A DNA stretch of 64,000 nucleotides from Arenicellaceae bacterium. Lineage in GTDB: Bacteria; Pseudomonadota; Gammaproteobacteria; Arenicellales; Arenicellaceae. The notes under the pieces were generated by a model. It was not told the DNA's origin. It searched no databases and was given only the letters and a program-made list of their open reading frames with translations. Every line of letters begins with the position of its first letter. Position 1 is the first letter of the stretch. A program made the position numbers and the translations under genes. Positions 23 to 11,270 of this stretch are shown here, in pieces. The stretch covers positions 1 to 64,000 of the forward strand of contig JAQWNC010000009.1 of NCBI GenBank assembly GCA_029246505.1, read 5' to 3'.

Positions 23-1246
23 TTGTCAGCTCTTCGTTTATTGTGTTTAAGGCACCCCCTAGTTATCGTGAAACAAAACCACCTGATTCGTAACTCAACG
101 CTGGCGCTTGCGCCAGCCGACGATGGCTATTATGCATTCGATATCGAGTCTCGTATATTGCATTGGTATAACCCAACAGCTGCACTTATCATCGAGCTAT
201 GTGACGGATCACGTAATCAGAAGGAAATCAGTTTTTTGCTGGCTCAGTTACAAGAAAGCACTGGTGAATGTACTACCTGGATCCAGCAAGCGCTCGATTA
301 TGGATGGGTAAAACCTATCGATGCCGAGTTTTTAGATGAATATCCCAGTGCACAAACAGTCGTAGATTTAGCCTGGGATCTTCGAGAAGAAGGGGAATAT
401 CTTGCATCTTATGTTTGTCAGGAATACGTGGTTGAGTTACAACCCGAACCGTCAACACACTGGCGCTATTTAGGTGAAATATCCCATATTGTTGGTCGCC
501 GTGAGAGAGCTCTCGAAGCTTACGAGAAATATTTAACATTGAAGCCTTACGATGCTGAGATATCACTAATCGTAGTGGCGCTTAGAGATGAGTCTCCGCC
601 CGAGCGGGCTCCTGATGAGTATATACAGCAAGTCTATACACGTTTTGCTTCTTTTTACGAAGATAACATGCGTGATGAGTTGGGGTATAACGGTCCGGAG
701 CGAGTTGGTAGTCTACTAGATCAATTTTTAGATGATACCGACGGGTTGAATGTTTTAGATATGGGTTGCGGTACGGGCTTATCCGGCGCGCCGTTGAAGT
801 CTAGATCCGAGTCACTGACAGGTATAGATCTTTCAGCCGAGATGTTGAAGAAGGCCGAAACTACAGGCATTTACGATATATTGGAGTGCGCCGAAATAAC
901 CGAATGGTTGGCAAACAACAAAAGCTCTTTTGACTTGATCGTGGCTTGTGATGCATGCATTTATTTTGGGGACTTAGGCCAAATTATACGCCCTGCAAAC
1001 CAGCATCTAAATCCGGGCGGGTGGATGCTGGTATCAGTAGAAAAGGGAGATTTATATCCATTTCGTCTTTCTGATTCAGGCCGCTATTCTCATACACAGC
1101 GTCATATTGAAGAAATAGCAACGGACACGGGCTTGGAAGTTTTAGATATTGACGAAGGGTTTTTAAGGAGCGAATATTCAAAACCTGTTATCGCTTTGAT
1201 GGTGTTGATGCGTAAGCCATTTAAAGCCGATGTTTCTTGTAGATAG
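23..1246 (+). CDS. PqqD-like / TPR / SAM-dependent methyltransferase fusion
   Basis: A three-part protein of 407 aa. Residues ~20-100 resemble the PqqD-like peptide-recognition fold (acidic and aromatic, with a YYAFDIESRILHWYNPTA stretch). Residues ~110-190 look like TPR helices (EALEAY/YLTLKPYDAE pattern). Residues ~200-395 are a class I SAM methyltransferase with motif I VLDMGCGTG, a following acidic GIDLSAEM, and motif IV-like LIVACDACIYF. The likely reaction is SAM-dependent methyl transfer to an unknown acceptor. The start is TTG at 23, preceded by GAAGGG at short spacing. A stop at 8-10 in this frame excludes an upstream start, so the gene is probably complete even though it lies at the window edge. 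Neighbours to the right are on the opposite strand and unrelated. The domain assignments are by eye: the methyltransferase is secure, PqqD-like is moderate. Confidence 0.75.
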   Translation: MSALRLLCLRHPLVIVKQNHLIRNSTLALAPADDGYYAFDIESRILHWYNPTAALIIELCDGSRNQKEISFLLAQLQESTGECTTWIQQALDYGWVKPIDAEFLDEYPSAQTVVDLAWDLREEGEYLASYVCQEYVVELQPEPSTHWRYLGEISHIVGRRERALEAYEKYLTLKPYDAEISLIVVALRDESPPERAPDEYIQQVYTRFASFYEDNMRDELGYNGPERVGSLLDQFLDDTDGLNVLDMGCGTGLSGAPLKSRSESLTGIDLSAEMLKKAETTGIYDILECAEITEWLANNKSSFDLIVACDACIYFGDLGQIIRPANQHLNPGGWMLVSVEKGDLYPFRLSDSGRYSHTQRHIEEIATDTGLEVLDIDEGFLRSEYSKPVIALMVLMRKPFKADVSCR

Positions 1247-1550: not shown

Positions 1551-2207
1551 CTATTTTTTTTGCGATAACTTGAAAGCAATTCGACTACCTAGTAATAGAA
1601 ACACTACAAAGGCGTATATTGCGGGTTCAGTAATATCTTTTTTTACCTGCCACCAGTAATGCCATACACCTAAGATAGCTACAATGTAAGCACCGTAATG
1701 AATTCGCTGCCAATTTCCCTTGAGTCTACGACGCATGGTATTTGTAGAAGTTGCTGCCATCGCAGTTAGAAGTATCAGCGATATCATGCCTAGCGTAATA
1801 AATTGCCGCTCAAGTACATCCTCGACTATATATTTTAGGGCAAGACCTTGATCAAGGAGGAGGTAAACTAAAAAATGCGACAATATATAAGTGAAGGCGA
1901 ACAGCCCGAGGATGCGCCGGAACTGCCCAAACCATGGTATACGCATTAACTTTTGTAGCGGTGTAACGGTAAGAGCGATAAGAATAAATCTTAAGCCCCA
2001 TTGCCCTAAGTGGTCCATTAGGCTTTCTATAGGGTTAATGCCGAGCCCACCAATATAATTTTCGAATAGTCCGAAAATTCGTGCGACCGCAATTAATAAT
2101 GGAATCAGGCAAATAAAAAATACAATTGGTTTAACTACTCGTCGTACAGCAACTATGGGAAGTTGGCGCAGTCCAACCACGCCTCCGGCGTTAAGTATTT
2201 GTAGCAT
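1551..2207 (-). CDS. msrQ: Haem-binding membrane subunit of methionine sulfoxide reductase, MsrQ
   Basis: A 218-aa integral membrane cytochrome b subunit (YedZ/MsrQ, ferric-reductase-like fold). It takes electrons from the respiratory chain or flavins and passes them to periplasmic MsrP, which repairs oxidised methionine in envelope proteins. About six hydrophobic helices are visible. Characteristic pieces are GLRFILIALTVTPL, RRILGLFAFTYILSHFLVYL with a haem-ligand-type His, and RRRLKGNWQRIHYGAYI with another. It lies 59 bp downstream of msrP on the same strand, the standard msrPQ order. Length is normal for the family. The coding end is close to a decayed reading frame that follows immediately. 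Confidence 0.93.
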   Translation of the reverse strand: MLQILNAGGVVGLRQLPIVAVRRVVKPIVFFICLIPLLIAVARIFGLFENYIGGLGINPIESLMDHLGQWGLRFILIALTVTPLQKLMRIPWFGQFRRILGLFAFTYILSHFLVYLLLDQGLALKYIVEDVLERQFITLGMISLILLTAMAATSTNTMRRRLKGNWQRIHYGAYIVAILGVWHYWWQVKKDITEPAIYAFVVFLLLGSRIAFKLSQKK

Positions 2208-2266
2208 GATTTACAGAGCGATTCTGTGGGGTTCTTACACTTATCAATAGCACCTGGAAATCAAAT

Positions 2267-3235
2267 CTAGAAGTTGCGCCTAAGATTTAATCCATTGTAT
2301 AGATCGGCTACCTGGTCGGCGTAACCATTGAATGGCAGAGTATCTACTTTCGATGCGAAAGACCCTTCACCAATTGGGCGTTCGCGCGCCTGACTCCAGC
2401 GTGGATGATTGACCTCCGGGTTTACGTTAGCGTAGAAACCGTATTCGCGTGGCGCCGAAATATTCCACGATGTTTTGGGTTGTGTTGAAGAGAAATCAAT
2501 GCCAACAATAGACTTGATGCTCTTGAAGCCGTATTTCCAAGGTACTACTAACCTTAGCGGTGCACCATTTTGATTAGGTAGAAGTTCTCCGTACAAGCCA
2601 ACAGCCAGGATGGTTAAAGGGTGCATCGCTTCGGCCATTGTTAGACCTTCGAGGTATGGCCATTGTAAAATCCGGCGGCGCTGCCCCGGCATTTGCTCGG
2701 GATCATTGAGGGTTTCGAAACCGACGTACTTGGCATTAGACGTAGGTTTGTAACGTTTGAGGACATCGGCGAGGGGAATACCGACCCAGGGAACAACCAT
2801 TGACCAGGCTTCTACGCAGCGAAGTCGGTATATTCGTTCTTCTAATACGTGCGGATTAATAAAATCTTCAAGATTAAAAGTGCCTATTTGTTCGGCTTCG
2901 CCAGTAATACTTAAGCTCCAGGGTCTGGTTTGAAAGTCTTGAGCATTCTTAGCAGGGTCCGCTTTGCCAGTGCCAAATTCATAAAAGTTATTGTAGTTTG
3001 TAATAGCATCGTATGAATTAGCAGTGGCGCTGGTCGACAGAGGACTTTCAATAACGCCTTTAAGTTTTGCTCTACGCTGAGTTGGTAGCGTTGCGGCTTG
3101 AGCGGGGAAGGCTATTACTGCTGTCGCGGCAGCTGATGCGCGAAGCAATTCGCGTCTATTCAAGTAGGTACTGTGCGGTGTAATCTCGGAAGGTAGAATT
3201 TTATTGCTTCCAAGGCTGGTATTTCGTTTGATCAT
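2267..3235 (-). CDS. msrP: Periplasmic protein-methionine-sulfoxide reductase catalytic subunit MsrP
   Basis: Molybdopterin-containing catalytic subunit (YedY/MsrP, sulfite oxidase fold) that reduces methionine sulfoxide in periplasmic proteins. The N-terminus carries a twin-arginine signal, [22 protein letters not shown] (residues ~26-47), so the folded cofactor-loaded enzyme is exported by Tat. The molybdenum-coordinating cysteine is Cys140 in [35 protein letters not shown] near residue 235 is the conserved cofactor pocket. The length of 322 aa is typical. It is the first gene of the msrP-msrQ pair; moaA, for molybdopterin synthesis, lies at the far right of the window. Confidence 0.95.
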
Positions 3236-3405
3236 TAATTATCTCCCCACCGGTCAAAGCCGGTATTTCCACTACATAGACCTTAGCCAATATTGGTTTG
3301 TTACAGTAGCAAAATTACTGATTCGCAATCAATTCAAACAAATATAAAGGCTGCTAATAATGAATTGAACACACCATACCAACTTATAGTAAAGTGATTC
3401 AGAAA

Positions 3406-3606
3406 CTATAACCAGCTAGGGCCTTCAAGTGTTTTTTCTATGAATCGAGACAATAGGCCGAAATTTATAAACCCAGTAAACAGAAATCCCCAAATGGCGC
3501 CTGTTAGATGCACCATATGGCCGATGTTATCGTTAGTATTTTTGTCTTGGTACCAGGAGTAAACAAGGTAGCCTACGCCGGCCAATATTTGTGGAATGGC
3601 GATCAC
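3406..3606 (-). pseudogene. C-terminal fragment of a rhomboid-family membrane protease
   Basis: A 66-codon open frame with two hydrophobic helices and the segment DNIGHMVHLTGAIWGF. This matches the last catalytic helix of bacterial rhomboid proteases, where the His of the Ser-His dyad sits in a D-x-I-x-H-x-x-H-x-x-GA context. The Ser-bearing GxSG helix and all upstream helices are missing, and nothing rhomboid-like can be read in the ~135 bases upstream. I call it a 5'-truncated remnant. It could be a short membrane protein starting at GTG 3606, but without the nucleophile it cannot be a protease. Confidence 0.5.
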
Positions 3607-3741
3607 GCCGTATAGATAAACGTTTCTGATTCGCTACTTACTATAAACGCGCGATTAAAGTTGATCGCTTTAGTGATGCTATCTCGATATGCGATTAAGT
3701 TTCTCACATAACCTTTGTCAGTAAAGGATTCTCAGTTCAGG

Positions 3742-4704
3742 CTATTCAGGGTGCACATAGTCACCGATTGGGAAACCCACTGGGTACGCGTCCTGGTAAT
3801 TCCCTGGGGTATCGTTGTAGCCCGGTTCGCGCCAACGGTACATGTTGTCCCACATGGAAATCACGTTCGAATGAAGCCACCAATCATAGTTTTCGTAGTG
3901 GGCGTAATCTTCCATTGTTACCCTTTCCAGAATCTCCTCAATCGTCGCCCCGGGGATCATTTGCGCTAAAACCCTATCGCGGAGAGTCGACACATAGTCT
4001 CGAAAATTAAGAAAGCTCTCTTGTGTGGTTGGACCCATATGCCCGGGCACCACAATATCGACATCGTCCAGCTTGGCTAAAATACCAAGTGTATCGATTA
4101 AATTTTCTATATGCGCATCACGAAAGTCGGGAAACACGATAGCTTTCTCCGTCCCTCCCCAGGCTAGGTCGGGTGCGATTAGAATCCGTTCTTCCGGAAG
4201 GTGAATTTGTATAAGATTATTACTGTGCGTATGGCCAAAGTAATAGAGGTACAAAGTCTTTCCGCCGAGATAAATCTCCATTTCTTGATCAAAGACGATA
4301 TCTGGTATTGAGGTATTTCGGCCTTCTCTAATAATGTGCTTTCGCGTCTTTGTATGAGATATGGTGGTGGCTGTGTCGTCGAAGATTTGCAGGCCACAAA
4401 TATGATCTTCGTGATCATGGCTTAGGATAACGTATTTTACCGGCACGTCGAAACGTCGATCCAGCTCAGGTTTGAGCCACTCCGCATTTCCTTGGCCACG
4501 GCAGGTAGAGTCTATGACGATGAGCCCTTCATCAGTGACGATAACAGAAGTGTTTGCAGCCATGGGCCGGTGTACAACACGATATACACTTTCGGTAAGC
4601 TGAACTAGCCGAGGACTTCCATCCTCAGGAGCCTGTGCCGTTACGGTTTGACAAATCGTCGACGCCAGAAACATTAATCCGGTGCTAAGCTTATTGTATT
4701 TCAT
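3742..4704 (-). CDS. Secreted MBL-fold metallo-hydrolase
   Basis: A 320-aa metallo-beta-lactamase-fold protein with a Sec signal peptide (cleavage near VTAQA, residues ~20-24). The zinc motif is complete: SHDHEDHICG places His96, His98, Asp100 and His101, followed by the downstream GHTHSNN and VPGHMGP histidines. The start has a good ribosome site (GGAG, about 5 bases from ATG). It is the last gene of the minus-strand run beginning at soxB and lies 74 bp after the NhaC gene, so it is probably co-transcribed with the sarcosine oxidase genes. The substrate is unknown. The family covers beta-lactamases, lactonases and glyoxalase-II-like esterases, and nothing here picks one. Confidence 0.85.
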   Translation of the reverse strand: MKYNKLSTGLMFLASTICQTVTAQAPEDGSPRLVQLTESVYRVVHRPMAANTSVIVTDEGLIVIDSTCRGQGNAEWLKPELDRRFDVPVKYVILSHDHEDHICGLQIFDDTATTISHTKTRKHIIREGRNTSIPDIVFDQEMEIYLGGKTLYLYYFGHTHSNNLIQIHLPEERILIAPDLAWGGTEKAIVFPDFRDAHIENLIDTLGILAKLDDVDIVVPGHMGPTTQESFLNFRDYVSTLRDRVLAQMIPGATIEEILERVTMEDYAHYENYDWWLHSNVISMWDNMYRWREPGYNDTPGNYQDAYPVGFPIGDYVHPE

Positions 4705-4778
4705 TTAGTTCTCCGTGCTATTAGGTCGTGTTTAACTATTCGTTGTGTAATCGTTCAACCCGTTTTAGGCGCCACGAG

Positions 4779-6173
4779 CTATTGGGTACTGGTGGGTGGA
4801 GCTTTCCGGAATACTCCAAAGCCCAAGTACGCAAGAACAATAGACAATAGCGGATTGAGGTAGTTAAAAAATGCCCATGGAGCAAATTCCAGCGGTGACA
4901 TGCTGAGCGCTCCAGTAATAAATGCGCCTGAAGTTGTCCACGGTATTATAGATGTGGTGCAAGTCGCGCCTTCTTCCAGACATCGTGACAACATGTGTTT
5001 CTCGAGATTTTGTTCTTTAAATGAGTCTTTGAAAACCTGCCCACCAAATATGATGGAGAGATACCCCTCGCCCATACTCATATTGGCGATGATACAACCA
5101 CCAATCGTGGTCGCCACCAAGCTTGCGGCGCGTTTAATCCTTAATAGTAGGCCGCTGAGCAGTACCCTAACAAAGCCTGCGTGATCGAGAATACCACCGA
5201 GTGATAACGCGATTAGCGCGAGGGACATTGTCCACATCATACTTTGAATACCGCCTCGGGTCAGGAGTACATCAAGACGCTCGAGCCCCGTATTCGCGAC
5301 ATAACCCCCGTTCAGGCTATTGAGCACCTCCGCAGCCGTTCGATCTTGCATCACGACGCCTAATACGGCTGCAGTAGCGACGCTGGCTAACATGCTAATT
5401 TCAGCTGGCATTTTTTTTATGCTAAGAACAAGCAGTACCAGCAAGGGTAGTAGAGTGAGCGGGTTGATGGTGAACTCGATTGCAAGGAAGTGTTTTAGTT
5501 GCACCAACTCCTGCGCCGACAGTGTTTGACCGCTGTAATTCAGACCGGCGAGCGTGAATAAAATTAGGCAGATGGTGTAGGTAGGCACGGTGGTGTACAT
5601 CATCGATTTTATGTGTGAGTAAAGGTCCGTATCCCCGCTCATGGCGGCAAGGTTTGTGGTATCTGAAACGGGCGACATCTTGTCTCCAAAAGTCGCGCCG
5701 GATACAACCATGCCCGCGACCAGTGGTAGGGGAATGCCGAGCGCCTCGCCAAGTCCCATGAGAACTACCCCAATCGTACCTATCGTTCCCCAAGCGGTAC
5801 CCGTCGCGACTGACATGAGACTGCACAGCACCAAACCGGCTGGTAAAAAGACGGTAGGATGTAGTATGTCGATACCGTAGTAGATTAGACCGCCAATCGT
5901 ACCACTCTCAATAAATGCAGCGATCAGAACGCCAATTAGAAAAAAGATAAACATCGCACCCAGGCCCTTCTCGATACCGGAGACCATCGCGGACTTGATC
6001 GCCACAAAGCTAAAGCCTAAAGCTGCAGAGTGAATCGCAACCCAGACGAGGGCGATCAATAGCAGGCTATGCAGACTGATGCCTAGCCACAACAACCCCG
6101 CGATAACTATCACGATGACGCCACCGAAACAGATCAGGGATTGCAAAAAACCGGGATCTTTTGTAGTTTTCAT
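4779..6173 (-). CDS. nhaC: Na+/H+ antiporter, NhaC family
   Basis: A 464-aa integral membrane protein with about 11-12 hydrophobic segments. The NhaC/ArsB-superfamily signature region is clear: ATGTAWGTIGTIGVVL (residues ~120-140), then GATFGDKMSPVSDTTNLAA and, near the C-terminus, EEGATCTTSIIPWTTSGAF. It exchanges sodium, or possibly a small organic anion, for protons. Its position, 41 bp after soxG and in the same orientation, suggests expression with sarcosine oxidase. NhaC-like carriers next to catabolic genes sometimes move the substrate or balance ions during osmolyte uptake, but that role is inference. The ATG is preceded by GAGGTG at good spacing. Confidence 0.88.
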   Translation of the reverse strand: MKTTKDPGFLQSLICFGGVIVIVIAGLLWLGISLHSLLLIALVWVAIHSAALGFSFVAIKSAMVSGIEKGLGAMFIFFLIGVLIAAFIESGTIGGLIYYGIDILHPTVFLPAGLVLCSLMSVATGTAWGTIGTIGVVLMGLGEALGIPLPLVAGMVVSGATFGDKMSPVSDTTNLAAMSGDTDLYSHIKSMMYTTVPTYTICLILFTLAGLNYSGQTLSAQELVQLKHFLAIEFTINPLTLLPLLVLLVLSIKKMPAEISMLASVATAAVLGVVMQDRTAAEVLNSLNGGYVANTGLERLDVLLTRGGIQSMMWTMSLALIALSLGGILDHAGFVRVLLSGLLLRIKRAASLVATTIGGCIIANMSMGEGYLSIIFGGQVFKDSFKEQNLEKHMLSRCLEEGATCTTSIIPWTTSGAFITGALSMSPLEFAPWAFFNYLNPLLSIVLAYLGFGVFRKAPPTSTQ

Positions 6174-6213
6174 TAATTCACCTCTTTACGGTTGTACAGT
6201 TACAATTAAGCGC

Positions 6214-6807
6214 TCAGTGATCGCGGTGCTTCTGGTTGTCATGCTCGGGGTTATTTGCCTCGGCAGCGCGTCCAGCATGATTGACTTCTAGTGGCGCACC
6301 AAGAATGCGGTGCAGATTATCATCGATGAAGTCTGCATAACTTCGATCCACCGCAATTTGAAAGCCCTCACCATCCGCAAAGGCATCGCGAGATAACAAC
6401 GCCTTTGTTTCGAATATTTCTGTATACGTCACCGCATTGTGCGGGAATGTCGTTGAATGGGTGTCGAGTGTACAACAGACTGCAATCACTTCGCTTGCGT
6501 CGGCCCCGCGAATTGAGAAAAATTGCAGCATATCGGATACCTCGACGATGGAAGTATTTCCTTCCTTAATGTCGCTAGTTTGAAACTCTACAGTGAGCGC
6601 GTCCGCTTCAGTTTGCGGTGCTCGTAGGATCCAATGCTGCGGTCCTATCCAGTAGAGCGCAACGTTTCCAAATATCGCTGCGGTATTGGGGGTCTCAGGC
6701 GGTACTATTTTAAGCTTAGTGAGAAGGGTGGTAATATCTGTTCTCGACCCTTTGAGGTCGAACACGCAAAAGAGTTCAAGCCGCTCGATATTTACGCAAT
6801 AAATCAT
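6214..6807 (-). CDS. soxG: Sarcosine oxidase subunit gamma
   Basis: The 197-aa gamma subunit of heterotetrameric (alpha-beta-gamma-delta) sarcosine oxidase. It has the GcvT-like/YgfZ-like fold of the family: GPQHWILRAP (residues ~54-63) and SMLQFFSIRGADA-type segments are the usual landmarks. It has no catalytic cofactor of its own; it stabilises the complex. The start ATG lies one base beyond the soxA stop, so the two are probably translationally coupled. The last ~15 residues are rich in His, Asp and Asn and look like a variable tail. Operon order soxB-soxD-soxA-soxG is canonical. Confidence 0.85.
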   Translation of the reverse strand: MIYCVNIERLELFCVFDLKGSRTDITTLLTKLKIVPPETPNTAAIFGNVALYWIGPQHWILRAPQTEADALTVEFQTSDIKEGNTSIVEVSDMLQFFSIRGADASEVIAVCCTLDTHSTTFPHNAVTYTEIFETKALLSRDAFADGEGFQIAVDRSYADFIDDNLHRILGAPLEVNHAGRAAEANNPEHDNQKHRDH

Positions 6808-6808
6808 A

Positions 6809-9754
6809 TTAATTCTTCATACGTAATGAGTCGGCATCGTAAAAGCACGGCTGCGTGATGGTTGCGGGTACGATTTCACCTTTTAGTCGAATATGCGCCG
6901 TTTGTCCGATTCTGCTGCGGCCGTTAGTCAATAATGCCAGCGCTACGGACCGAGAACTTGCCACGCTCCAGACCGAGGCGGTAACAAACCCTTCAGAAGC
7001 TTCCAGTCGTCCGCTGGGTGTTAACGGCGCACCTTCTGTCACCAACCGGGATGGATCGTCGGTGAGCAATCCAACCAATTCACGCCGTGGACTTTCTACG
7101 CTGCGACGAATCTCGACGGCTCGCTTGCCTATATAATCAACCTTCTTTTTGGACATAATCCAACTCATTCCAAGGTCGTATGGGTCTGCAGTTCCATCTA
7201 CTTCGTGCCCTAACGACAAAAACCCTTTCTCTACACGTAAAACGTGATTAGCTTCCGACCCTATCGGGGTCAATCCTAGTGGTTCGCCTAATTCAAACAG
7301 ACGCTCCCAGAGTTTCAGTGCGAATCGAGATTGTACATTAATCTCAAAACTGAGTTCTCCGGTGAAACTCACCCGAAAAACGCGCGCCTCGATTCCTTCG
7401 ATGGTTCCCTCACGCATCGCCATAAACGGAAATTCGTCTGCCGAGAAATCGATGTCAGACTCTACTCTTGAAAGAAATTCACGCGCATTCGGCCCGCACA
7501 CAGTGGCGTTCGACCATTGCGTGGTTATCGGTGTAATCCACACATTCCACTTTGGCCGCTCGATCTGTAAGAAGTGTTGTATATGTCGATGTACCACTTC
7601 GGCATTCGCGGTGGAAGTCGACATCAGGTAGTGATTCTCGCCAAGCTTTACGGTCACGCCATCGTCTAGAATTCTGCCATCCTCAGTCAGCATCATCCCG
7701 TATCGTCCTGTGCCTACCTTCAAGTTTGAGAACAGATTTGTGTATAGTATGTCAATAAGTTTGGTTGCATCCGGGCCGCAGATATCGAATTTACCGAGCG
7801 GTGATCCGTCGTAGACTGCGAGGTTTGTTCTGGTTGCAAGCGCCTCGCGATTCACCGTTTCCTGAAATGTTTCTCCATTTTTTGCATAATAGCCTGGCCG
7901 GCGCCAACGCGCTCCTGACTCATACATGGTGGCGCCAAAATCTTTATTCCATTGAGTCATCGGTGTGTGACGGTAAGGTAGTAGTGCACTGTTTTCGCGC
8001 CCACCTGCGATCGCGCCGAATTCAATTGGAGCGAAAGGAGACCGATACGTGGTGGTTCCAATATCGCGTAAAGCAACATTAGAGCGATTGGCAACAGCCC
8101 CTACAATGTTGATGCCACCTGTTTTACCTTGATCGATTCCCATACCGCCGGTCGTATATCTTTTAACGTGTTCGATGGCACCGAATCCTTCCCGAATAGC
8201 TAGGTGAACATCATTGAGTGTCACGTCGTTTTGTATATCCACAAAAGCGTTGGCGCTTGTTTCGCTTGAATTGACCTGCCACAGAGGTTCAATGGAATAG
8301 GGCGCTGATGAGGCTGTTGAGGGCACGCTAGTTTCGACACGCTTAAAACCACAATCACTGGCGGCACGTGCTCCTACCTTAATTCCATCTGCAAGAATCT
8401 GACCTAACTCGAATTCCCCTGCTGCGGCGCCAACGCATTCGCAGGCCTGCACAGCCTCATGCGGAATAAAGGCCGCCAAGTCGTCGTTGTACCGCAATGT
8501 GCTTCTTGACTGGGAAAAAAGATGTATCGTCGGATTCCAGCCGCCGGATACACACAGCAAGTCGCAGGGAATGGATCTAGGGTTACCAGTTTCATTTGAT
8601 TGAACTACTACCGCGCGCACGCGTTGTCGACCCAAGGTGCTGGCGACGATATGATTTGTCAGTATTTCTATGTCGCCGGCTAGTTCGCGCATAGCGTTAC
8701 TAGGGCCCGTACGTGAATCAATAATCGATGCGATTTCAATTCCTGCTGCGATCATGTCTACGGCGACTGGGTAGGCGCTATCGTTGTTAGTAAAAATGAC
8801 CGCTCGCTTGCCGGGTAAGACGGCATAACGATTAACATAGGCCTGCACTGCGGATGCAAGCATAACTCCTGGTCGATCATTATTCGCAAACACTAGAGTT
8901 CTCTCGATGGCACCGCACGCGAGAATGACCTGGCGCGCGCGAATTCGCCACGTGCGCTGCAATAGTAACTCTGCTGCCGGTTGACGCTCAGTAACCACTA
9001 CTAGATTTTGTTCTCGGTAAGCCCACGCGATCGATTCCTGTAAACGTAAAACATTACTCAGAGAGTCGAGTTCATCGGTGATGCTGGTAATCCAATCGCT
9101 AGTATTTTTATCATTCACTTTATCTGTTCGATTCAGCAATCCACCACCCGGGTTTGTGCCATCATCGACCAAAATCGTACGTGCGCCACTTCGCGCAGCT
9201 GTCAATGCCGATGTGAGGCCGGCAGGCCCGGCACCAATAATCAGGACATCGCAAAACCAGTTTCTCGATTCGTATTGCCCTTTTGTGGGTGCTTGTTTTG
9301 GTGCATTCGCCAGCCCTGCGATTCGACGAATACTGGGTTCGAAAAAATGCCAATTCGGCCATTTGAAAGTCTTGTAGTAAAATCCGGCTGGAATACATCT
9401 TGTGATTAGCTGGTTGATACTTAATAAATCGTATTTTAGTGAGGGCCAACCACTCACGGACTTTGCGCGTAATCCTTCGCGAAGCAGTACAGTCGTTATG
9501 GGTTGGCTGCTAGATGCATCGTCGTCCAATAGTTCCACGAACGAGGCTGGCTCTTCAGAACCTGCCCCCATGATTCCGCGCGGCCGATGATATTTGAAGC
9601 TACGTGCCGTGAGGCTTACGCCGTTGGCGATTAGTGCTGACGCTAGCGTGTCACCCTCGTAGCCCTGATATCGAGTACCGTTGAACTCGTATCTAATAAT
9701 TTTAGAGCGATCAATATCACCACCACTGGCTAGGCGTCGAAGTTGGCTAGTCAT
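6809..9754 (-). CDS. soxA: Sarcosine oxidase subunit alpha
   Basis: Large subunit that binds NAD and, with SoxB, flavins. The complex oxidises sarcosine to glycine and hands the methyl carbon to tetrahydrofolate. In order: an N-terminal ferredoxin-like/2Fe-2S-fold domain with YEFNGTRYQGYEGDTLASAL; a Rossmann dinucleotide domain with IIGAGPAGLTSALTAARSGA (~residues 170-190); and a C-terminal GcvT-like folate-binding domain with GTGRYGMMLTEDGRILDDGV and ETFQETVNREALATR. I prefer the ATG at 9754, which overlaps the soxD stop by eight bases and gives 981 aa in line with the family. An in-frame ATG at 9784 would add ten residues. Confidence 0.92.
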   Translation of the reverse strand: MTSQLRRLASGGDIDRSKIIRYEFNGTRYQGYEGDTLASALIANGVSLTARSFKYHRPRGIMGAGSEEPASFVELLDDDASSSQPITTVLLREGLRAKSVSGWPSLKYDLLSINQLITRCIPAGFYYKTFKWPNWHFFEPSIRRIAGLANAPKQAPTKGQYESRNWFCDVLIIGAGPAGLTSALTAARSGARTILVDDGTNPGGGLLNRTDKVNDKNTSDWITSITDELDSLSNVLRLQESIAWAYREQNLVVVTERQPAAELLLQRTWRIRARQVILACGAIERTLVFANNDRPGVMLASAVQAYVNRYAVLPGKRAVIFTNNDSAYPVAVDMIAAGIEIASIIDSRTGPSNAMRELAGDIEILTNHIVASTLGRQRVRAVVVQSNETGNPRSIPCDLLCVSGGWNPTIHLFSQSRSTLRYNDDLAAFIPHEAVQACECVGAAAGEFELGQILADGIKVGARAASDCGFKRVETSVPSTASSAPYSIEPLWQVNSSETSANAFVDIQNDVTLNDVHLAIREGFGAIEHVKRYTTGGMGIDQGKTGGINIVGAVANRSNVALRDIGTTTYRSPFAPIEFGAIAGGRENSALLPYRHTPMTQWNKDFGATMYESGARWRRPGYYAKNGETFQETVNREALATRTNLAVYDGSPLGKFDICGPDATKLIDILYTNLFSNLKVGTGRYGMMLTEDGRILDDGVTVKLGENHYLMSTSTANAEVVHRHIQHFLQIERPKWNVWITPITTQWSNATVCGPNAREFLSRVESDIDFSADEFPFMAMREGTIEGIEARVFRVSFTGELSFEINVQSRFALKLWERLFELGEPLGLTPIGSEANHVLRVEKGFLSLGHEVDGTADPYDLGMSWIMSKKKVDYIGKRAVEIRRSVESPRRELVGLLTDDPSRLVTEGAPLTPSGRLEASEGFVTASVWSVASSRSVALALLTNGRSRIGQTAHIRLKGEIVPATITQPCFYDADSLRMKN

Positions 9755-10010
9755 GTGTTTTATTGGCGTAATCGAGAATCTCATGCGTTAACGTATTTCG
9801 TTGTATGGAGAACCACATTGAACAGCCCATCACATGCCACCATTTCTCTGTTACCGGGCCTAATGGATTGGGCGCCTCGATTAGATAGTCAATCCAGTCA
9901 GCATCAGCATATGCATTAGGATTATCTGCTCGTTTCTCTCTGGCTGGACCGCCATTAATAAACTCGCTTTCGTTTCGTGGACCACAAAAGGGGCAGTGAA
10001 TTACTAGCAT
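9747..10010 (-). CDS. soxD: Sarcosine oxidase subunit delta
   Basis: The 87-aa zinc-binding delta subunit of heterotetrameric sarcosine oxidase. The N-terminal HCPFCGPRNESEF and the later HVMGCSMWF supply the Cys/His zinc ligands, and LTHEILDY near the C-terminus is conserved in the family. It lies 12 bp after soxB, and its stop overlaps the preferred soxA start (ATGACTAG arrangement), the usual tight spacing for this operon. The length is typical and no defect is visible. Confidence 0.93.
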   Translation of the reverse strand: MLVIHCPFCGPRNESEFINGGPAREKRADNPNAYADADWIDYLIEAPNPLGPVTEKWWHVMGCSMWFSIQRNTLTHEILDYANKTHD

Positions 10011-10022
10011 GTCGAGTTGCGC

Positions 10023-11270
10023 TTAATGCGCGGTGGTTGCAGGTTCAAGAACAAAGTCGAGGTGATCAAATCGTTTTAACGAAAATGGTTCGCTCAACGG
10101 GTGTTGTTCGTTATTCGCAATTAAATGCGCGAGGGTTAACCCACCGGCCGGAATTGCTTTGAATCCGCCCCACCAGCCTGCGGATACGAACAACCCCGGG
10201 ATGTCAGTTTTACTAATAATGGGTGTTGCGTCGTGGGCTATATCTAGAGCACCTCCCCATTGCCGCAAAAGTTTGACTCTCTTAAAGGAGGGAAATAGCT
10301 CTAACATTGATCGAACAGACTCTTCAAAAACGTTTTGCTTTATGTCTCGCCGGAATGATTGCCCTGAATCTGGCGCGCCGCCGATAACCAGCTCGCCTTT
10401 GTCGGACTGACTCAGATAAACGCCAAGGTCCGGGCAATTCACGATGACATCGATTAGCGGCTTAAGCGGTTCAGATACAAACGCGGTGAGGTTAAATGTT
10501 CTCAGCGGCAAACGAAGCCCGATCGTTTCTGCCACCGTAGTTGTGTGTCCGGAAACCGAGAGCGCGACTTTATTCGCGGTGATTTTCCCTCGGTCGGTGA
10601 CTACGCCGGTTATAGAGCCATCGGAACCTCTCAGTAACTTCTGCACCCCCGTGTTTTGGTGAATTTCTACACCACGATCATCCGCGCCTCGCGCATAACC
10701 CCAAGCAACCGCGTCGTGTCGGCAAACGGCTGCATCGGTGTGTACCATGCCACCGATAATCGGAAGTCGTGATTCTAGGTCGCCACCAGTGAGCGGTGAG
10801 ATACGGCGACGAAGTTCGCTGACACCGATGGGTTCGTAGGTGGAGCCATGAAGGTGCATGGCAAGCATGCGACGCTTTAACTCACGCAGCTTCGGGTAGG
10901 TCTGAACGACGTCAATCATACCTCGTTTGGAGTACATAAGGTTGTAATTGAGTTCTTGGCTTAGCTTCTCATAGAGTTCGAGTGACTTTACGTAGAATGG
11001 AATACTTTCGTCACGCATATAGTTTGACCGAATCGTGACAGTGTTTCGCGCGATATTTCCGCCACCTAACCAACCCTTTTCGAGCACCGCGACGTTTTGA
11101 ATGCCGTGATTTTTTGCAAGGTAATAAGCTGTTGCTAGGCCGTGCCCGCCGGCACCGATAATGAGGACGTCATAATGTTTTTTGAGAGGTGGAGAACGCC
11201 ATGCTTGACGCCAATTCTGATGGTTGCTTAATGCATTGCGTGCCAGGCTGAATACTGAGTAGTTCTGCAT
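10023..11270 (-). CDS. soxB: Sarcosine oxidase subunit beta
   Basis: The 415-aa catalytic subunit of heterotetrameric sarcosine oxidase, an FAD/FMN-dependent N-methylglycine oxidase. The dinucleotide motif DVLIIGAGGHGLATAYYLAK is at residues ~34-53. VCRHDAVAWGYARGA contains His185, which aligns with the histidine that carries covalent FMN in characterised homologues. SAGWWGGFKAIPAGG near the C-terminus is the conserved substrate-proximal loop. It is the first gene of the sox operon, and a perfect inverted repeat lies 36 bp upstream. Folate and glycine genes common beside sox operons (glyA, folD, purU) are not present, but gcvT and gcvP occur 25 kb away. Confidence 0.93.
   Translation of the reverse strand: MQNYSVFSLARNALSNHQNWRQAWRSPPLKKHYDVLIIGAGGHGLATAYYLAKNHGIQNVAVLEKGWLGGGNIARNTVTIRSNYMRDESIPFYVKSLELYEKLSQELNYNLMYSKRGMIDVVQTYPKLRELKRRMLAMHLHGSTYEPIGVSELRRRISPLTGGDLESRLPIIGGMVHTDAAVCRHDAVAWGYARGADDRGVEIHQNTGVQKLLRGSDGSITGVVTDRGKITANKVALSVSGHTTTVAETIGLRLPLRTFNLTAFVSEPLKPLIDVIVNCPDLGVYLSQSDKGELVIGGAPDSGQSFRRDIKQNVFEESVRSMLELFPSFKRVKLLRQWGGALDIAHDATPIISKTDIPGLFVSAGWWGGFKAIPAGGLTLAHLIANNEQHPLSEPFSLKRFDHLDFVLEPATTAH

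Follow-up and report, generated by a model that had tools for sequence, protein, structure and literature searches.

A rare PqqD-TPR-methyltransferase fusion predicted to act on leader-bearing glycine-lysine repeat proteins

A gammaproteobacterial gene lying at the very edge of a contig joins a PqqD-like domain, TPR-like helices and a SAM methyltransferase in one chain. What would such an enzyme methylate, and does its N-terminal domain select the target? The original prediction, made from the 64,000-nucleotide stretch analyzed here (hereafter the window), had proposed peptide or protein methylation, perhaps of a RiPP precursor encoded to the left. We followed this up with profile searches, structure prediction and a comparison of orthologous loci.

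Gene model and domain architecture

The reading frame at 23-1246 on the forward strand is open throughout and is bounded on its upstream side by an in-frame stop at 8-10. Alignment with the start of the 50% identical orthologue at locus L143 favors GTG 68 as the start codon, with TTG 23 as an upstream alternative (Table 1). The claimed arrangement of a PqqD-like domain, TPRs and a SAM methyltransferase in a single chain was borne out by Pfam, orthologues, hhalign and the predicted fold.

The methyltransferase assignment is beyond doubt. Seven Pfam models scored above cut-off, including PF13489, PF13649 (50.3 bits against a cut-off of 27), PF08241, PF08242 and PF13847, and together with motif I they identify a class I SAM methyltransferase. 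Within DMGCGTGLSG, which we take to be SAM-binding motif I, the residues G, C, G, T, G, L and the final G were invariant in an alignment of four full-length orthologues. The nearest solved relatives of the domain are mixed and include small-molecule enzymes; METTL27 (7qcb) was a profile match with E 1e-11, and the best equivalog-type matches, UbiG and BioC, both fell far under cut-off. The preceding segment contains about two TPR-like repeats, with TPR_9, TPR_CcmH_CycH and TPR_2 matching residues 132-184 (407-aa numbering), each under cut-off. A full-length structure predicted from two sequences was poor (pLDDT 49.5).

Table 1. Coordinates of the enzyme gene, its parts and the partner homologue (window positions unless a contig is given).
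Feature	Coordinates	Strand	Details and basis
CDS of RRE(PqqD)-TPR-methyltransferase	68..1246	+	392 aa, GTG start; ORF and L143 alignment
PqqD-like / RiPP recognition element domain	68..325	+	about residues 1-86; PF05402, hhalign, fold
TPR-like helical repeats	350..607	+	about residues 95-180; sub-cut-off Pfam; helices in low-confidence full-length model
Class I (seven-strand) SAM methyltransferase domain	614..1222	+	about residues 183-385; Pfam over cut-off; Foldseek matches to class I methyltransferases
Presumed SAM-binding motif I, DMGCGTGLSG	758..787	+	sequence
Remaining upstream sequence before contig end	1..67	+	frame-1 stop at 19-21
Own-genome partner homologue	G000 C6:139236-139568	-	110 aa; right end of contig C6; leader HMM

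The N-terminal domain resembles leader-binding RREs

A profile search of the N-terminus recovered the expected similarity to PqqD (PF05402, E 0.0011), but at 19.7 bits it stayed under the cut-off of 23.4. The same model matched at the same N-terminal place in three orthologues with 23.6, 19.6 and 17.8 bits, of which only the first passes, so that three of the four fusion members scanned, the window protein included, are sub-threshold. When the N-terminal 101 residues were searched against 369 genomes of the same class, four genomes besides the window's own matched at E<=1e-3. One match, at L038, is a PqqD flanked by ORFs that read as PqqC and PqqE; the other three are small stand-alone PqqD proteins (PF05402 at 39.7, 72.2 and 55.0 bits). 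An hhalign comparison of seven fusion domains with seven stand-alone PqqDs, several of which had been chosen for their similarity to the window domain, gave 99.4% (E 2.5e-21). Searching the fusion-domain profile against PDB sequences returned the lasso RRE TfuB1 (6jx3) as the top match, with E 0.0049.

Structure prediction for the domain, from an alignment of six sequences of which four are stand-alone PqqDs, reached a pLDDT of 86.6. The first four Foldseek rows were a lasso B1 protein with leader, the PbtF RRE with peptide and TbiB1 with leader twice; the best match had E 1.3e-3 and probability 1.00, and none reached E 0.001. VIA-align gave Z scores of 10.1 for MibB, 9.9 for NisB, 8.2 for 6jx3 and 7.2 for PqqD 5sxy, followed lower down by the protein-lysine methyltransferases Rv2067c (7.4), PKMT2 (7.0) and PKMT1 (6.3), where a Z under 8 may reflect merely a common arrangement. 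Because the orthologues, the stand-alone PqqD matches, hhalign and the predicted fold agree, the sub-threshold PF05402 match is not a chance one. Judged from sequence profiles and the model, the domain is a PqqD-like domain of the RRE winged-helix type, predicted to bind a leader.

This enzyme does not belong to the PQQ proteins. The PQQ-specific model TIGR03859 scored 12.5 bits where 46 are required, the partner described below does not read as PqqA-like, and the window's own genome contained no second PqqD above E 0.05 or the cut-off.

The fusion is a rare, monophyletic family

TPR-methyltransferases as such are widespread, with 66 of the 369 class genomes, the window's own included, matching at E<=1e-20. 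Among the class-wide matches listed, every alignment except the window's own starts at residue 108 or later. No TPR-methyltransferase was found at E<=1e-20 in the 20 other listed genomes of the genus and family. A phylum-wide search of 349 genomes gave 26 matches at E<=1e-40, again including the window's own; the earliest starts among the others were at model positions 69 and 71, past the PqqD core.

The N-terminal domain was used for a pattern scan across 84,980 genomes and hit six loci. One of these, L143 from an Acidobacteria MAG, has the whole architecture. A profile built from the window protein and L143 then matched eight of 396 Acidobacteriota genomes at E<=1e-40, full-length in three (G474 itself, G1061 and G880). 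In the order of G1061, G1061 itself was the one match in 15 genomes; in the order of G880, five of 139 matched at E<=1e-60, four of them full-length including G880 and the fifth (G1278) cut by a contig end. Across the two phyla covered with the fusion profile, the window's own and Acidobacteriota, seven fusion relatives were thus found, six of them full-length and all from Acidobacteriota. The first contig scan and three scans of viral contigs revealed no relative. Plasmids carried TPR-methyltransferases, but no fusion alignment covered the PqqD core; a match on an Azospirillum plasmid begins at residue 49 and was taken for TPR, not for a PqqD fusion.

In a tree built from the TPR-methyltransferase part only, the window protein and all seven relatives form one clade (100/100) apart from 24 controls, and the window protein groups beside L143 and L166 (97/94); L143 is also its nearest orthologue in sequence. 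The PqqD-TPR-methyltransferase fusion is therefore a rare, monophyletic family. Since the gammaproteobacterial window gene falls in a clade with Acidobacteriota relatives, it looks to have been acquired horizontally, an interpretation drawn from this tree.

A leader-bearing repeat protein is encoded beside most readable Acidobacteriota fusions

In five Acidobacteriota loci (L166, L167, L174, L175 and L176), the fusion gene is directly preceded on its own strand by an ORF whose product has a conserved leader and then a Gly/Lys/Arg-repeat tail. The leaders of these five partners share the consensus MSxEVxxxLExLLKxVPTxRRQALRRLLxGAGxLA, which resembles a twin-arginine signal, and the tails consist of 41-53% Gly, 15-24% Lys and 7-14% Arg, with Lys outnumbering Arg in all five. 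A purine-rich stretch resembling a ribosome site precedes each of the five starts, and differences between leaders are distributed over codon positions as 53/31/77 (four sequences, six pairs), a coding pattern. The NCBIfam model TAT_signal_seq (TIGR01409, cut-off 16.7) was run on two of the Acidobacteriota partners and gave 15.0 bits for that of L166 and no hit for that of L167.

Seven orthologous loci were available; L177 is unreadable upstream, with its contig ending 2 bp above the gene. The partner thus lies upstream in five of six readable loci, against none of 24 TPR-methyltransferases without PqqD. The control detector, which looked for an RR motif plus a Gly/Lys/Arg-rich stretch, was tuned on the positives and shows only that the controls lack such a gene; 20 of the 24 control loci were picked from listed matches of the class-wide and Acidobacteriota searches with upstream room. 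The sixth readable locus, L143, has no adjacent partner within 2,050 bp upstream, and its neighbors read as a phosphofructokinase, a lipocalin-like exported protein and an ECF sigma factor, together with a tRNA-Ala.

As a separate observation, the partner gene of L174 is immediately preceded by a degenerate piece of the same TPR-methyltransferase, about 0.3-0.7 kb before the enzyme frame, which suggests local duplication and decay.

A partner homologue lies elsewhere in the window's own genome

The window corresponds to C4:1-64000 of genome G000, that is, its position 1 is the first base of contig C4. In the short sequence left upstream of the enzyme gene, the frame-1 stop could close a putative upstream gene whose product would end in VYINEG. 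The left end of C4 overlapped none of the 59 other contig ends (exact overlap of at least 15, or blastn E below 0.67). A chimeric contig end was considered and is unlikely, because the GC3 of the gene (0.40) falls within the range of its neighbors (0.37-0.55).

Downstream of the enzyme gene, at 1551-11270 on the reverse strand, the ORFs read as MsrQ-like, MsrP-like, metallo-beta-lactamase-fold, NhaC-like and sarcosine oxidase subunit-like genes. All of them run opposite to the enzyme gene and have no evident link to it. In a genome of the same genus (G001), the sole MsrQ match sits at a contig edge.

We built an HMM from the five leaders and searched 15,713 ORF segments with it. Beyond its own members it gave one clear hit (E 1.3e-10), which lies in the window's genome (Table 1). 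The protein reads MSKHDKKHLEAILEQVSPTRRKFLRSSLIAGGAAVLAAPVSSSLAQ, then continues into a tail finishing as a (KG)n run, where a lone Arg comes last and Arg is otherwise almost absent, and it passes TAT_signal_seq with 19.1 bits against 16.7. The leader HMM does more than detect Tat signals: the window's MsrP-like protein, which has a Tat-like start and is presumably itself of the Tat type, did not reach E 5. Of the 2.64 Mb in this genome the HMM search covered about 0.41 Mb, so further partner copies are possible.

Enzyme (C4) and partner (C6) are on different contigs. The last 82 bp of C6 equal the first 82 bp of C11 with one mismatch (L118, L093) and span the first codons of the partner and its 5' region. 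On the simplest reading C6 and C11 adjoin, which places the partner away from the enzyme; alternatively, there may be two partner copies, one of them leading into C4. A scan of the ORFs running outward off contig ends showed none with a leader-like start; the C6 copy reads inward. The idea of a RiPP-like precursor for this enzyme was thus upheld in part: a leader-repeat gene precedes five of six orthologues and has a homologue in the window's genome, but none adjoins L143 and the own-genome copy is on C6.

Proposed function and competing explanations

Comparative genomics lends good support to the idea of a PqqD-guided methyltransferase whose substrate is a leader-bearing peptide or protein. 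By gripping the leader, an RRE places the substrate for an enzyme that is fused to it or docked, as in NisB, lasso B1 and PqqD. Because an RRE is here fused to a methyltransferase and the leader is the conserved part of the partner, docking of the leader followed by modification of the tail is the economical reading. That RREs bind leaders is also stated in passages of PMC7470986.

We regard the pairing of enzyme and partner as highly probable. Leader binding by the RRE, the partner as substrate, methylation of its tail and Tat export we infer from these comparisons. In the proposed mechanism, the N-terminal domain would serve as an RRE that binds the leader of the small partner protein, and the TPR-like helices would help to hold the partner chain. 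In the cytoplasm, the C-terminal class I domain would then use SAM to methylate the basic Gly-Lys/Arg repeat tail, most likely on lysine side chains; the partner would afterwards leave through the twin-arginine (Tat) pathway and lose its signal. Tat exports proteins that are already folded or modified, which fits modification before export. Methylation of the partner tail is reasonably likely, and we lean with similar confidence toward leader-guided methylation of the basic tail in the cytoplasm ahead of Tat export; that lysine is the main acceptor we propose only tentatively.

In an alternative that we consider unlikely, another target is methylated, the PqqD-like domain is a structural or dimerization winged helix as in Rv2067c and the rickettsial PKMTs, and the upstream repeat protein is a neighbor with a role of its own. 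The same fold does occur at the C-terminus of Rv2067c and PKMT1/2, the Pfam PKMT winged-helix model weakly matches one fusion domain (L167, E 0.018), and L143 has no partner gene beside it. However, the closest relatives of the domain by both sequence and fold are leader-binding RREs rather than PKMTs, and the conserved partner leader recurs with the fusion in two Acidobacteriota groups and in the window's genome.

Alternatively, the RRE binds the leader as proposed, and methylation takes place at another site of the partner (the N-terminus after cleavage, Asp/Glu or the C-terminus) or on arginine instead of lysine. Class I methyltransferases use many acceptors, the solved relatives are mixed in this respect, and the partner tails contain both Lys and Arg; yet Lys exceeds Arg in every Acidobacteriota tail and the own-genome (KG)n tail is nearly free of Arg, and we rate this variant as slightly more improbable again. 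That the protein is an ordinary small-molecule TPR-methyltransferase with a PqqD-like domain, linked to the repeat protein by accident, is suggested by how widespread such enzymes are and by the distant UbiG and BioC matches, but is very improbable given the partner at five of six loci against none of 24 controls and the independent hit in the window's genome.

Returning to guided methylation of the partner, its fullest form may be a RiPP-like class in which an RRE-TPR-methyltransferase hypermethylates the lysines of Gly-Lys repeats, Tat exports the resulting polycation, the leader doubles for docking and export, and the system has spread between Acidobacteriota and a gammaproteobacterium; we advance this as a possibility suggested by the sequences. 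Such a system, if true, would amount to RRE-guided methylation of poly-lysine, with one leader used both to dock the enzyme and to reach Tat. Now that a partner gene has been identified for an RRE-guided enzyme, how the target is chosen can be tested directly on just two small genes, and as substrates the (KG)n tails are unusually simple.

Tat-like leaders near stand-alone PqqD genes

In several phyla, stand-alone PqqD genes have short ORFs nearby whose start is Tat-like (RR plus hydrophobic), for example DPTRRSFIKKLVAAGAAAPVV. Such loci are L144 (8241-8891), L145 (8975-9451), L147 (8262-8567), L148 (7899-8662, three copies) and L039 (149-1438, three copies). Marginal next-best hits of the leader HMM include L145/L037 (E 0.015) and L144 (E 0.14). 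In a Mesorhizobium MAG, an ORF at L146 4599-4859 on the forward strand has a similar leader, ESRRGALRKLVVTASFAPPVVASF (HMM E 0.012), about 3 kb from a stand-alone PqqD. At L145 (contig of G432:C92), PqqD stands beside ORFs read as HPr-kinase-like and nucleotidyltransferase-like and a Tat-like small ORF, a locus that resembles the NCBIfam HPr-rel-A system (PqqD_rel_X at 34.3 bits against a cut-off of 35). PqqD-type domains may read twin-arginine-type leaders widely, which, if true, would provide a searchable signature for unrecognized modification systems.

Comparison with known systems

Ordinary TPR class I methyltransferases, which we take to be COG4976, share 27-37% identity with the window protein over the shared part, among the matches listed in the class-wide search. 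Those listed have longer TPR arrays or other N-termini, with no PqqD in the aligned region.

Among protein methyltransferases, rickettsial PKMT1/2 have a domain of similar fold (Z 6.3 and 7.0), a likeness in the fold of one domain only, which is C-terminal in the PKMTs and N-terminal here. Passages of PMC10739865 liken the substrate trough of Rv2067c to that of PKMT1/2. Methylation of many lysines of one exported bacterial protein is described in parts of PMC11784438, for OmpB and for AtaA by KmtA. The targets of PKMT1/2 and of Acinetobacter KmtA are autotransporters, whereas here they would be Gly/Lys repeats with a Tat leader.

The closest parallels are the RRE-dependent RiPP pathways (PqqD, lasso B1, NisB/MibB). 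As in these, a PqqD-like domain is accompanied by a short gene whose product opens with a conserved leader, here at five of six readable orthologous loci. RiPP-type maturation, with the core modified and the leader removed, may follow. Both discrete and fused RREs are known. Here, however, the RRE is fused N-terminally to a TPR-methyltransferase, the leader is twin-arginine-like, the 'core' is a Gly/Lys/Arg repeat of 59-86 residues in place of a short peptide, and no peptidase or radical SAM gene was recognized beside the fusion. DUF2063/HvfC systems use a different modifying enzyme. Their RRE pairs with DUF2282 precursors that start with a Sec export signal, according to passages of PMC12710340, so that an RRE combined with an export-signal precursor is common to both, with a Tat-type leader and a methyltransferase here. 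In the portion consulted, the same 2025 RRE survey mentions for Streptomyces actuosus a predicted methyltransferase with a discrete RRE close by, the two being unfused. In the open-access PMC literature we found neither a PqqD-TPR-methyltransferase nor a Tat-leader RiPP partner described. RRE-guided modification as such is known; the RRE-TPR-methyltransferase would be a form of it not described in that literature and, if the methylation is true, possibly a new class.
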